Source of the DNA: Alphaproteobacteria bacterium
GTDB lineage: Bacteria; Pseudomonadota; Alphaproteobacteria; Rs-D84
DNA: 64,000 nt
Assembly (NCBI GenBank): GCA_017535105.1
Contig: JAFXUI010000004.1
Location: 62,001-126,000, forward strand
Direction: 5' to 3'
Shown one piece after another: positions 28,443 through 53,288 of this stretch. The translations under genes were made by a program, and so were the position numbers. A model generated the notes under the pieces. The model saw nothing but the letters and a program-made list of their open reading frames with translations, did not search any database and was not told where the DNA came from. The first letter of the stretch is position 1. Each line of letters begins with the position of its first letter.

Positions 28443-29330
28443 ATGAACCCGAACGAGATTATTGAAAACACAACCGAGATTTTACAGAATCCAAAAGAAT
28501 TATTAAATGTTGAGGTGTCCAGTATAGATGCCGCTATACAATCGCTGATTCAGTCGGCGATTGATTTCGGTATCAAAATGCTGGTTGCAATTTTAATCTT
28601 TTGTGCGGGGATGTGGCTTGCCAATCGTATTACGCGTTCATTAAAGGCTATTATGGAACGCCGTAAATTTGACCCGTCATTAAAATCTTTCTTGGCGTCT
28701 TTTGTAAATATCGTATTGAAAGTATTTGTGTTCATTATCGTACTTACCACCGTTGGTGTACAAATGACGTCCATTGTTGCGGTGTTGGGCGCGGCATCAT
28801 TGGCGGTTGGTTTGGCACTTCAGGGGACATTACAAAACTTTGCAGGCGGAATAATTATTTTAATGCTTAAACCGTTTCGGGTCGGGGACGCAATTGAAAC
28901 CGCCAGTGGCAAGGTTGGTGTAGTTAAAAAAATTATGATGTTCACAACCGAACTTCATACGTTTGATAACCAGGTTCTGTTTTTGCCGAATGGTGCGTTG
29001 GCAAACGGAATTATTACTAATATGTCCAAAGAGGGTGACCGCCGTACCGATATGAACATAAGTATTTCGTATGGTGACGATGTTGATGTCGCGCGCAAGG
29101 CGATATTGGAAGTGCTGAAAAAAGACAAGCGTATCATGAATAAACCAGAGCCGATTGTGTATGTGTCAAACTTGGGCGACAGTGCGGTTGTTTTGTCGGT
29201 GCGTTTTTGGACGTCATATGATGATATGTTTGCGACACGTGGCGATGTGTTGGAAAAGTTATATGTGGCTTTGCCAAAAAAGAAAATTCATTTCCCATAT
29301 CCACAAATGGATGTTCACGTGAAAAAATAA
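28443..29330 (+). CDS. mscS: Small-conductance mechanosensitive channel
   Basis: Membrane channel that opens under tension to release solutes. After a polar N-terminus (~35 residues) three membrane segments are seen at ~38-60, ~80-105 and ~108-140. The third contains the Gly/Ala-rich pore helix with LGAASLAVGLALQGTLQNFAGGIIILMLKPFRVGD, the family hallmark. The cytoplasmic cage domain follows. Length 295 aa is close to E. coli MscS. Located 12 bases after a type-B cysteine-rich gene. Confidence 0.93.
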   Translation: MNPNEIIENTTEILQNPKELLNVEVSSIDAAIQSLIQSAIDFGIKMLVAILIFCAGMWLANRITRSLKAIMERRKFDPSLKSFLASFVNIVLKVFVFIIVLTTVGVQMTSIVAVLGAASLAVGLALQGTLQNFAGGIIILMLKPFRVGDAIETASGKVGVVKKIMMFTTELHTFDNQVLFLPNGALANGIITNMSKEGDRRTDMNISISYGDDVDVARKAILEVLKKDKRIMNKPEPIVYVSNLGDSAVVLSVRFWTSYDDMFATRGDVLEKLYVALPKKKIHFPYPQMDVHVKK

Positions 29331-29335
29331 TTTGC

Positions 29336-29354
29336 CCGCGTTCGCGGTTTTTTT
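29336..29354 (+). terminator. Weak terminator after mscS
   Basis: A short CCGC-GTTC-GCGG stem followed by seven T, at the edge of the repeat element that begins at 29355. Confidence 0.45.
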
Positions 29355-29462
29355 GTCATTCCCGCGCAGGCGGGAATCTATTGCCACGCAGTGCCCACAT
29401 GTTCGCCGAACAATCGGCGAATTGCCTGCGACGCATTGGATACCCACCTTCGTGGGTATGAC
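29355..29462 (-). repeat. 108-bp inverted copy of an intergenic repeat element
   Basis: Both ends are hairpins: ATTCCCGC-GCAG-GCGGGAAT at one end and ATACCCAC-CTTC-GTGGGTAT at the other, flanked by GTCAT/ATGAC. The reverse complement of the whole element matches 29964-30060 apart from an 11-base insertion in the middle and about five substitutions. No coding content. The architecture is that of a miniature non-autonomous element. Confidence 0.85.
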
Positions 29463-29553
29463 AAAGTTGTTTTCCTTTCGTTCCTAGTCATTTTTATTGT
29501 GTGGGGTGGTATAATTGTTGTGGCGGATGTAACAATAAACAATGGGGGAAAAT

Positions 29554-29916
29554 ATGAAGAAAATATCAATCTTGGTAATCGCGTGTGCCGCCATATCGGG
29601 CGCGGCAAATGCAGCAATGAACGGCGGTATGGGGCAGGGCGGTTTCGCCGGTGGCGAAAACGTCATTTTGACAGTAGACCAGGTCAAAAATATGAACGAT
29701 AACTCAAAGGTATGGGTAGAAGGTGTAATCTTGCAGAAAAATGGTGATGAAACCTATATGTTCCAAGATTCAACTGGGACAATTATGGTTGAAATAGACG
29801 ATGACGCATGGCACGGATTGGTCGTTGGTCCAACCGACACCGTCCGTATCTTTGGCGAAGTTGACCATGGTTTATTCACAACCGAAATAGATATAGATTA
29901 CATTGAAAAGTTGTAA
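29554..29916 (+). CDS. Secreted BOF (OB-fold) family protein, YgiW/YdeI-like
   Basis: Periplasmic OB-fold protein of the YgiW/YdeI (BOF) family, linked in enterobacteria to stress tolerance. The start at 29554 (MKKISILVIACAAISGAANA) gives a clear signal peptide and follows the ribosome site GGGGGA; an ATG four codons earlier overlaps that site and is unlikely. Signature blocks: VWVEGVILQKNGDETYMFQDSTGTIMVEIDDDAWHG and VRIFGEVDHGLFTTEIDIDYIEKL. Mature size ~100 aa is normal. The gene sits alone between two inverted copies of the same repeat element. Confidence 0.85.
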   Translation: MKKISILVIACAAISGAANAAMNGGMGQGGFAGGENVILTVDQVKNMNDNSKVWVEGVILQKNGDETYMFQDSTGTIMVEIDDDAWHGLVVGPTDTVRIFGEVDHGLFTTEIDIDYIEKL

Positions 29917-29920
29917 AAGA

Positions 29921-29944
29921 AAACGCCCAAGCGGGCGTTTCTTG
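29921..29944 (+). terminator. Terminator after the BOF gene
   Basis: AAACGCCC-AAGC-GGGCGTTT stem followed by a short T-rich run. Confidence 0.75.
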
Positions 29945-29963
29945 TTGAATATTATACTAATTT

Positions 29964-30060
29964 GTCATACCCACGAAGGTGGGTATCCAATGCGCCGCAG
30001 GCAATTCGGTGAACGTGTGGACACTGCGTGGCAATAGATTCCCGCCTGCGCGGGAATGAC
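29964..30060 (+). repeat. 97-bp copy of the intergenic repeat element
   Basis: Same element as 29355-29462 but in opposite orientation and lacking 11 middle bases. Begins GTCATACCCAC and ends GCGGGAATGAC. Together with the first copy it brackets the BOF gene with a long imperfect inverted repeat. Confidence 0.85.
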
Positions 30061-30069
30061 ATTTGATTT

Positions 30070-31140
30070 TTATCTGTTTGTCAGTTTCAATTCAATGCGG
30101 CGATTCTTTTGTAAATCGGCCGGGGAGTTACCCAATTCAACTGGGAACAATTCGCCAAAGCCACTGGGCAGTAAACGACGTTTTGATACACCGTTGTTGG
30201 ACAATTCATTTGCAACCGCGGTTGCGCGCAATAATGACAACTGCATATTGTTGCGATATGCGCGTGTTCCCGGTATGACCGCCTTTTTGTCGGTATGACC
30301 GTCAACACGAACAATCCAGTCTATGTTTGATGGAATCTTGTTCTCAAAATCTTTAATCACGTTGGCGATTAAGCGTAATTGGTTTTTACCATCTGCCGAC
30401 AGAGTGTACGAACCACTGGGGAACAAAATGTCGCTTGAAATAATAAAGCGGTCACCATCGGCTTGTAATGTTGTGCGGTTACCCAACGCTTCCTTTATCG
30501 CGCGATAGAATTCTGATTGATACTGGGCCACCTTGTTCAATTCGGCAACCTTGTCCGCCAACGCCTTGTTCAGACGATTTGACATTTCAACATACTGAAT
30601 TTCCTGGGCGCGTGATTTTTCTTCGGCGGCATCCAGGGCGGCCTGTAATTTCGCGATTTGTTCCGCCAATTCCGCACGTTGCGATGACATTTCATCGTGC
30701 AGGGCCGCGCGTTCGCGTTCCAGATTGGTAATTTGTTCCTTGGTCATATTCGCCATATTTAATTGTTCGGTCAATTCGTTGACTTGTGCCTCATACGCGT
30801 TGACAAGGTCTTGGATACTTAAATCAGTTTCATTTAATTCGTTGATAAGTTCCGCATTGTCGTTGCCCAATGTTTCCAATTCGTTACGCGCCGCAATAAG
30901 CAGTTGTTTTGCCTCTTGCTCATCAGCGCGCATTTGGTCAATGGTCAAAGCCTGTTCGGCATTTGTCGCCTTTAACTCAGCAACAGTTTTTGCGCCACTT
31001 TTCTTGTTAAACACACTTGTCGTGGTCCACAAAAATACGAACATAATAAGTAAAAATATAAGTATAATCACCAAATTAGAAAACAAGTCCACAAATCCGG
31101 GCCATGTACTTGTATTCTCGCGATAACGAACGTTCATCAT
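30070..31140 (-). CDS. Inner-membrane OmpA/MotB-domain protein, partner of a TolQ/MotA-like channel
   Basis: 356 aa. One membrane segment at residues ~17-40 (SNLVIILIFLLIMFVFLW), a long coiled coil of about 160 residues (~50-210), then a C-terminal OmpA-like peptidoglycan-binding domain (~240-350) with ILFPSGSYTLSADGKNQL, VRVDGHTDKKAV and LLPSGFGELFPV. This is the layout of MotB-type stators, but the coiled coil is far longer and no flagellar genes are present. It lies 27 bases downstream of the MotA/TolQ/ExbB gene, forming an operon. Such pairs are recurrent in Alphaproteobacteria and probably couple proton flow to work on the cell wall; the exact function is unknown. Confidence 0.85.
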   Translation of the reverse strand: MMNVRYRENTSTWPGFVDLFSNLVIILIFLLIMFVFLWTTTSVFNKKSGAKTVAELKATNAEQALTIDQMRADEQEAKQLLIAARNELETLGNDNAELINELNETDLSIQDLVNAYEAQVNELTEQLNMANMTKEQITNLERERAALHDEMSSQRAELAEQIAKLQAALDAAEEKSRAQEIQYVEMSNRLNKALADKVAELNKVAQYQSEFYRAIKEALGNRTTLQADGDRFIISSDILFPSGSYTLSADGKNQLRLIANVIKDFENKIPSNIDWIVRVDGHTDKKAVIPGTRAYRNNMQLSLLRATAVANELSNNGVSKRRLLPSGFGELFPVELGNSPADLQKNRRIELKLTNR

Positions 31141-52469: not shown

Positions 52470-53288
52470 TTATCGTTGAAAATTCTCGTTATAGCGTATG
52501 GTCCCAAAAGAAAATCCAAAATTAGATAATTTGATGCTATCTTGAATATCTTGTTGATTTGCCATTCCTACTTCATTTAATGTGCCGGAACCTTTGACTT
52601 TATAACGATTTGCAGGTGTTACAGATTCTACAATCATGTTCATGTAGGTCATGATGTCGCGTGTACGGATTCCACCCAATGATTTGCCGTCGTTTTTCAA
52701 ATATACGTTATCAACCAATGTTGAATCAGCGGATGCGGCAACTTTGTCTGCTGGCCATACCGCATCCCAATTATTGTCGCCCCAAATATATGTCGTGTTG
52801 TGGTGAGGAATTGCGGGCTTTTCGATATACACCGTATCAGGTTTAAGATAGATTGTGTCTGGTTTTGACGGAGTATAAACAGTATCTGGTTTTGACGGAG
52901 TATAAACAGTATCTGGTTTTGACGGTGTATAAACCGTATCTGGTTTTAAATAGATTGTATCTGGCTTTGCGAATATCGTATCTCCCGGAAGATAAATTGT
53001 GTCACGTGGTGTGAAAATTGTGTCGCCCGGAAGATAAATCGTATCGCCCGGAAGATAAATGGTATCCCCAGGAACAAACAGTGTGTCCGCCGGAATATAT
53101 ACCGTATCGGGTCTTAACGTGTCGGGTTTATTGACATATACGGTATCGTGTTTGGTTTCGGTTCGTATTTGCGTCTTGAAATCATCTTCTTTTTCACAAC
53201 CAACCGTACCCAATGCGGTGATACCGGCAATTCCCAACATTGGGAATAACCGTCTAAGTTTATAAGATTGTACCCTGCGAAACTTCAT
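52470..53288 (-). CDS. Repeat-rich probable lipoprotein with DT[IV]Y repeats, 272 aa
   Basis: The start at 53288 gives a signal sequence ending TALGTVGC, an imperfect lipobox with Cys31. Residues ~46-150 contain fifteen D-T-x units, most of the form [KG]-P/G-D-T-[IV]-[YF], with three identical copies of a nine-residue unit T-P-S-K-P-D-T-V-Y. The rest (~155-272) is a globular domain with WGDNNWDAVWP and no cysteine. The repeat probably forms an extended stalk. Such DTVY/DTIY stalks recall lipoproteins of Bacteroidota, so exchange with gut neighbours is possible (inference). Middle gene of the operon with 53323 and 51936. Confidence 0.75.
   Translation of the reverse strand: MKFRRVQSYKLRRLFPMLGIAGITALGTVGCEKEDDFKTQIRTETKHDTVYVNKPDTLRPDTVYIPADTLFVPGDTIYLPGDTIYLPGDTIFTPRDTIYLPGDTIFAKPDTIYLKPDTVYTPSKPDTVYTPSKPDTVYTPSKPDTIYLKPDTVYIEKPAIPHHNTTYIWGDNNWDAVWPADKVAASADSTLVDNVYLKNDGKSLGGIRTRDIMTYMNMIVESVTPANRYKVKGSGTLNEVGMANQQDIQDSIKLSNFGFSFGTIRYNENFQR
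52861..52941 (-). repeat. Three tandem copies of a 27-base unit
   Basis: 27-base unit (nine codons) repeated three times, the third with small changes, inside the lipoprotein gene. Such tandem repeats can change copy number by slippage and alter stalk length. Confidence 0.8.

Follow-up and report, generated by a model that had tools for sequence, protein, structure and literature searches.

What are the two inverted, hairpin-ended repeats that bracket a BOF gene in this alphaproteobacterial genome, and what, if anything, moves repeats of their kind? The window, by which we mean the whole 64,000-nt stretch of DNA that was analysed, lies within contig C5 of an 870-kb genome (six contigs, 96% complete). 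Element 1 (29355..29462, + strand, 108 bp) is a head-to-head dimer of two REPs of the CGTC-1 (dRS3) type: the left REP (29355..29377, +) carries a GTC tag and an 8-bp stem, ATTCCCGC/GCGGGAAT, around the loop GCAG, and the right REP (29440..29462, -) a GTC tag and the 8-bp stem ATACCCAC/GTGGGTAT around the loop GAAG. Element 2 (29964..30060, - strand, 97 bp) is of the same type in inverse orientation with an interior shorter by 11 nt, and its REPs have the stems ATACCCAC/GTGGGTAT (29964..29986, +) and ATTCCCGC/GCGGGAAT (30038..30060, -). The initial annotation had described two inverted, hairpin-ended elements of 108 and 97 bp that differ by an 11-base insertion and a few changes, and its positions and lengths are accurate: the inverted elements are 86.1% identical over 108 alignment columns, with most of the difference in a single 11-nt gap, and their inverted arms measure 57 and 53 nt at 94-95% identity. 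All four ends form perfect 8-bp stems with 4-nt loops next to the GTC tag (GTCATTCCCGC-GCAG-GCGGGAAT and GTCATACCCAC-GAAG-GTGGGTAT); the tag reads TGTC throughout, and the unpaired tail is CCA at two ends and CTA at the other two. The window has no other perfect GTCA-tagged hairpin with this geometry, and none turned up in 20 shuffled windows. Folded as single-stranded DNA, element 1 reaches -31.3 kcal/mol (z -5.2; equalled by none of 200 shuffles) and element 2 -22.2 kcal/mol (z -2.7; equalled by one of 200).

By every feature tested, namely tag, AT-starting 8-bp stem, 4-nt loop, tail and dimeric arrangement, the window elements are CGTC-1 REPs. The resemblance to dRS3 repeats that had been noted from the letters alone is thus correct, given that the dRS3 repeats of Neisseria have been equated with CGTC-1 REPs (PMC3733652). 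CGTC REPs, as defined by Di Nocera et al. (2013), are known from five phyla and include the RPE-4/6 repeats of Rickettsia (PMC3733652). A search of positions 28900-30600 against Rfam gave zero matches. Elsewhere in the window, at 52848-53100, lie direct repeats with spacings of 21 and 27 bp, both multiples of three, perhaps within a coding region.

Counted over the whole genome, REPs of this kind are present in low copy number: a strict search returned 13 ends, and with weaker ends added these form seven inward-facing pairs and one single end. Six of the pairs are short and gene-less, comprising window elements 1 and 2 (e1 and e2), e3 (C5:236655-236763), e4 (C2:5643-5757), e5 (C2:92619-92732) and e6 (C2:101652-101775). 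Full-length identity is 92.7% between e1 and e3 and 90.4% between e4 and e5, while the flanks differ. The seventh pair (C2:92788-93233, 446 bp) consists of inward CGTC hairpins around an open reading frame for a 106-aa GIY-YIG protein (PF01541, E 2.4e-13); the only other GIY-YIG match in the genome falls in a UvrC-sized frame of 507 codons. One end of each of e1-e5 matches the outer 37-44 nt of this gene-bearing copy at 95-97% identity, and one end of e6 matches the copy's other end at 95% over 39 nt. Because their ends are held in common with the gene-bearing copy, the short pairs look like gene-less derivatives of it. We think it probable that the repeats in the window derive from a small mobile element as its non-autonomous copies, and that the autonomous form combines CGTC hairpins with a GIY-YIG gene. 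At locus L005 on contig C2 of the same genome (G000), around 1486-1500 and 1655-1669 of that locus, a REP dimer adjoins the gene-bearing element, and about 15 bp of left flank, GGTATTCTTACTTGT, are common to both, as if one of the pair had arisen by local duplication.

The neighbourhood of the window elements bears on how they came to lie on either side of one gene. Upstream, an MscS-type channel gene (28443..29330, +) is followed after its stop by a terminator-like hairpin with a T-run and then by element 1; the BOF gene (29542..29916, +; PF04076, E 2.3e-24) lies between the elements, and the stop of a convergent OmpA-domain gene downstream (30070..31140, -) is separated from element 2 by about 10 bp. 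One gene bracketed by two inverted copies some 500 bp apart had suggested a composite mobile unit carrying BOF, or a segment that the repeat pair could flip. The genus, however, carries the BOF gene in 57 of 59 genomes, and in the three closest relatives (G005, G008 and G021; BOF protein 78-85% identical) the MscS, BOF and OmpA-domain genes keep the same order and orientation although both repeats are absent. BOF is therefore a resident and not cargo, and the description of the repeats as hairpin-ended, multicopy and insertion-like holds, since they are missing at this locus from all three relatives. Element 1 also shows higher identity to a copy at a distance of 145 kb (92.7%) than to the neighbouring element 2 (86.1%), which, like the conserved gene order and BOF orientation around the missing repeats, argues for two separate insertions; on sequence comparison, this history appears to fit best. 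Recombination between the inverted elements is possible in principle, but the orientation of BOF is unchanged in the three relatives. We give the composite or invertible reading practically no credence.

Could the repeats instead be settled 3' stem-loops, such as terminators or mRNA stabilisers, that function as RNA and no longer move? REPs have been found mostly downstream of genes (Di Nocera et al., 2013; PMC3733652), and a terminator-like hairpin, as judged by eye, lies within about 40 bp of six of the eight copies in this genome. A fixed role of this kind is at odds with the three relatives that lack the repeats at the locus and with the want of an Rfam match, and it leaves the nuclease gene unexplained; we regard it as highly improbable as a full account. 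A stem-loop function could be a secondary role, compatible with a mobile origin of the repeats.

Is the pairing of gene and hairpins general? For the survey of 398 Pseudomonadota genomes we used a profile of 15 sequences (A1), which was built from loci of relatives, many of them picked for their REP flanks, whereas the rows tested were chosen by protein score alone. The family occurs in 163 of the 398 genomes (E 1e-6), with up to eight copies per genome. Our sample comprised 30 loci and the next 80 rows by score which, minus the source genome's own locus and one already included, gave 108; removal of two duplicates and of four loci without 300-bp flanks left 102. Inward GTCA hairpins stand on both sides within 300 bp at 36 of these 102 loci, as compared to none of 204 positions shifted by 900 bp. 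A second set, made up of stand-alone GIY-YIG genes of at least 90 aa among the matches listed in 99 relatives, with UvrC-sized frames excluded, gave 21/50 against 0/100 shifted positions. Bracketing GTCA hairpins were found neither at UPF0213-like GIY-YIG genes of the same genomes (0/31) nor at BOF loci (0/28). When tags were compared, GTCA scored at 38 of 106 loci and six other tags at 0/106 each. With no tag assumed, exact inverted repeats of at least 12 nt connect the 250-bp flanks at 69/102 and 29/48 loci of the two sets (controls: 5/204, 1/92, 2/30 and 1/28), and 47 of the 69 and 21 of the 29 touch GTCA/TGAC; four loci of the second set that the tree puts beyond the family clade (L133, L180, L184 and L188) were removed from this test. 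Similarly, the near flanks of the 108 loci hold 173 perfect hairpins, compared to 8 in shuffled flanks and 16 in far windows, and 90 of the 173 follow GTC.

The stems themselves vary between loci and yet match across the gene, so that left and right co-vary: their identity is 93% (46 pairs), as opposed to 54% in shuffles and a maximum of 66% in 10,000 shuffles. The association of the gene with the hairpins is strong, although the strict two-sided test is negative at 66 of the 102 loci, which counts against a mobile element defined by these ends. Relaxing the stem raised the two-sided count to 36/102 at k=6 (shifted positions 1/204, UPF0213-like genes 2/30) and to 42/102 at k=5 (4/204 and 2/30). 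Given that this relaxed test of 5-6 bp stems is less specific, our conclusions rest on the strict GTCA-hairpin and inverted-repeat tests. A tag-agnostic hairpin count found hairpins on both sides of 10/28 BOF genes and is noisy there because of terminators, which leaves the tag and inverted-repeat tests unaffected. At the level of whole genomes, the family (E 1e-10) was found in 18 of 23 genomes with the strict CGTC-1 pattern and in 22 of 76 without it (99 genomes; Fisher p 5e-5, kinship ignored); the 5/23 REP-positive genomes that have no family member speak against the gene as the general source of movement. A phage search with one family protein found no relative.

The 15 rows of A1 all retain the tyrosines of GIY and YIG together with one Arg, one His, one Glu and one Asn, residues that are catalytic in the GIY-YIG superfamily. 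A structural model of a related protein (L235; pLDDT 87.7) has as its nearest solved folds the UPF0213 protein BH0048 (1zg2, E 8e-4) and then Slx1 (6sei, E 7e-3), a branched-DNA nuclease. A quick tree of 196 rows recovers the family as a supported group with 159 rows; the UPF0213-like rows fall outside it with one exception, L216 (82 aa). Flanked and unflanked members are intermixed, and some subclades are wholly unflanked by the strict test, a further point against the mobile-element explanation. In part of one such subclade (L136, L141, L160, L182 and L189, all of the same genus), the flanks carry another GTC-tagged repeat, GTCATTGCGAG...GCAATCCAG, whose imperfect stems escape the strict test.

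Among named organisms, a collection of plasmid records, several of them chromosome-sized, held 33 records with the family, and 13 loci were examined. Tight inward ends are present at six of these (Aeromonas caviae, Rhizobium CIAT894, Sinorhizobium meliloti, Azospirillum, Shinella and Sphingobium), the Photobacterium locus has hairpins on the downstream side only, and tight inward ends were not found at the Planktothrix, Novosphingobium, Spirosoma, Sinorhizobium C101 and R. tumorigenes loci. In a second collection, of genome contigs, inward ends lie on both sides within 350 bp at 8 of 17 loci (of 19 in all, L252 and L253 being left out), several of the loci being cut by contig ends. A genus-level member of the family matches MAGs of Candidatus Enterousia and of further gut Alphaproteobacteria. 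On a contig of a Candidatus Gracilibacteria MAG (L247, 3001-3294), a member of the family is likewise bracketed by inward CGTC hairpins; the frame contains two stops under table 11, perhaps because TGA is read as glycine in this lineage.

Comparison of orthologous sites reveals the gene in some strains and its absence in others, and it is here that the main rival to a mobile element has to be weighed. According to this alternative, the GIY-YIG gene is a homing invader and the REPs are its target; cleavage of a REP or a REP dimer would lead repair to copy the gene in, and the REPs themselves would spread by other means. GIY-YIG homing enzymes are a known kind, and several loci lend themselves to such a reading. 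In Azospirillum lipoferum 4B, the gene sits between sufB and sufC with a complete REP dimer on each side, and it is absent from A. oryzae, A. ramasamyi and strain B510, which are 95-96% identical at sufB-sufC. In Neisseria gonorrhoeae (L222, 2260-3620), a GIY-YIG gene with an apparently disrupted start lies inside a cluster of 11 dRS3 hairpins spanning about 1.4 kb, a position that favours homing; the lack of a tight end pair around it is awkward for a mobile element. At one Sphingobium fnrL site, the gene is found in seven records and missing from four, of which three occupied and the four empty ones were read. Two of the strains without the gene, TomTYG64 and TomTYG74 (L367 and L369), retain a single palindrome that is tagged at both ends; an untouched target and the scar of a deletion between the two hairpins would explain it equally. 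TomTYG72 and TomTYG65 have neither gene nor palindrome at the site, which counts against the homing of a gene into pre-existing REPs. In the source genome, 37-44 nt are common to the gene-less copies and the gene-bearing one, and full-length identity between elements 1 and 3 is 93% in different flanks, so that dimers also move as units. Homing into REPs that were already in place is thus in our view unlikely, yet it is the alternative that we take most seriously.

Genome G048 has two copies on different contigs that are 95.8% identical over 542 columns, a point in favour of a mobile element; the identity starts a single base before the tag at one end and extends about 55 bp past the hairpin at the other. 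No target duplication was recognised there, at the Azospirillum and Sphingobium sites or at the window flanks, where the empty sites are too diverged for a firm reading, and this weighs against a transposing unit. Such a duplication, with a matching transposase, would mark a MITE of a DDE insertion sequence. For the Rhizobium CIAT894 and R. tumorigenes loci, a clean empty site was not found among the matches listed.

A further possibility is that a RAYT or other transposase moves CGTC REPs in trans and that the GIY-YIG gene is a frequent passenger. REPs of the GTAG class are tied to RAYTs (PMC3733652; PMC8266576), the relation of such REPs to HUH enzymes being treated in PMC6006769 and PMC8266576, and RAYT genes are present in 3/23 REP-positive relatives. 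This frequency does not differ from that in genomes without the pattern (4/76, p 0.35; 7/99 genomes overall), and Di Nocera et al. (2013) found no transposase gene with CGTC REPs at its flanks (PMC3733652). Nor would the wide recurrence of a passenger gene with matched hairpins be expected. The source genome has zero matches to Y1_Tnp (PF01797) at E 1, which speaks against a RAYT as the local mobiliser, and we rate movement of CGTC REPs by a transposase of this or another type as very unlikely. At L096 (G029:C3, 1501-1854) there is a RAYT-type Y1 gene whose genome, also of this genus, lacks CGTC-1 REPs under the strict pattern.

We return to the small mobile element with its own nuclease. Its ends would be inward-facing CGTC-tagged hairpins, and its autonomous form would carry a single gene, for a free-standing GIY-YIG nuclease about 100 aa long. 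The nuclease may recognise the extruded hairpin together with the GTC tag, either in single-stranded form on the lagging strand or in a cruciform, and could cut at the foot of the hairpin; it might act in trans on gene-less copies, and host repair would then complete excision, copying or, conceivably, re-insertion. What the sequences show is the anatomy, the ends common to the copies of the source genome, the gene-hairpin association across Pseudomonadota, the matching left and right stems and the occupied and empty orthologous sites; cutting of the hairpin, action in trans and the route of re-insertion are inferred. GIY-YIG enzymes are hydrolytic and thus without the strand-transfer step of HUH transposases, a property that sits uneasily with this scheme. 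Whether the same holds for CGTC REPs in general, including dRS3 and RPE-4/6, is in our estimation evenly balanced: all of them may be footprints of minimal transposable elements with a GIY-YIG nuclease of about 100 aa as the sole enzyme. What, if anything, moves CGTC REPs was left as a question in 2013 (PMC3733652), and a GIY-YIG gene between tagged hairpins with co-changing stems is a specific and testable candidate. What is new is the bracketing of a GIY-YIG gene by CGTC hairpins: the term GIY-YIG is absent from the main text of Di Nocera et al. (2013; PMC3733652), and a literature search, with most subscription papers and bioRxiv outside its scope, found among the papers listed none tying GIY-YIG to REPs, dRS3 or CGTC; PMC9465073, in which 'GIY-YIG' and 'repetitive extragenic palindrom' occur once each in the text searched, was the sole paper found with both. 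If the proposal is true, it would also provide a role for what is annotated as 'GIY-YIG nuclease family protein', a widespread protein without an assigned function.

Several known systems resemble the element proposed here. With the CGTC-1 REPs and dRS3 repeats described previously it shares the GTC tag (here TGTC), the AT-starting 8-bp stem, the 4-nt loop, the CCA or CTA tail and the intergenic head-to-head dimers (PMC3733652); it differs in that a GIY-YIG gene lies between the same ends, whereas that study reports no associated transposase gene. UPF0213/YhbQ-type GIY-YIG proteins and Slx1 provide the solved folds closest to the L235 model, but the UPF0213-like genes belong to a separate branch (32/33) and have no two-sided GTCA hairpins (0/31). 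GIY-YIG homing endonucleases such as I-BmoI are likewise small selfish genes with a GIY-YIG catalytic domain. I-TevI is another enzyme of this class. In contrast to homing endonuclease genes, there is here no intron or intein, about 100 aa offer no room for a separate DNA-binding domain, and the gene comes with hairpin ends and gene-less derivatives. A parallel in architecture is the REPtron or REPIN-RAYT system, which also combines inverted pairs of tagged hairpins, many gene-less copies and one hairpin-bracketed enzyme gene (PMC3116915; PMC8266576), with a GTAG tag and a Y1 HUH enzyme in place of the GTC tag and GIY-YIG protein found here. If our explanation is true, minimal GIY-YIG elements would be the counterpart of RAYT/REPIN systems built on an unrelated catalytic fold, and two unrelated nuclease folds would serve tagged-hairpin repeats, Y1-HUH for the GTAG class and GIY-YIG for the CGTC class.
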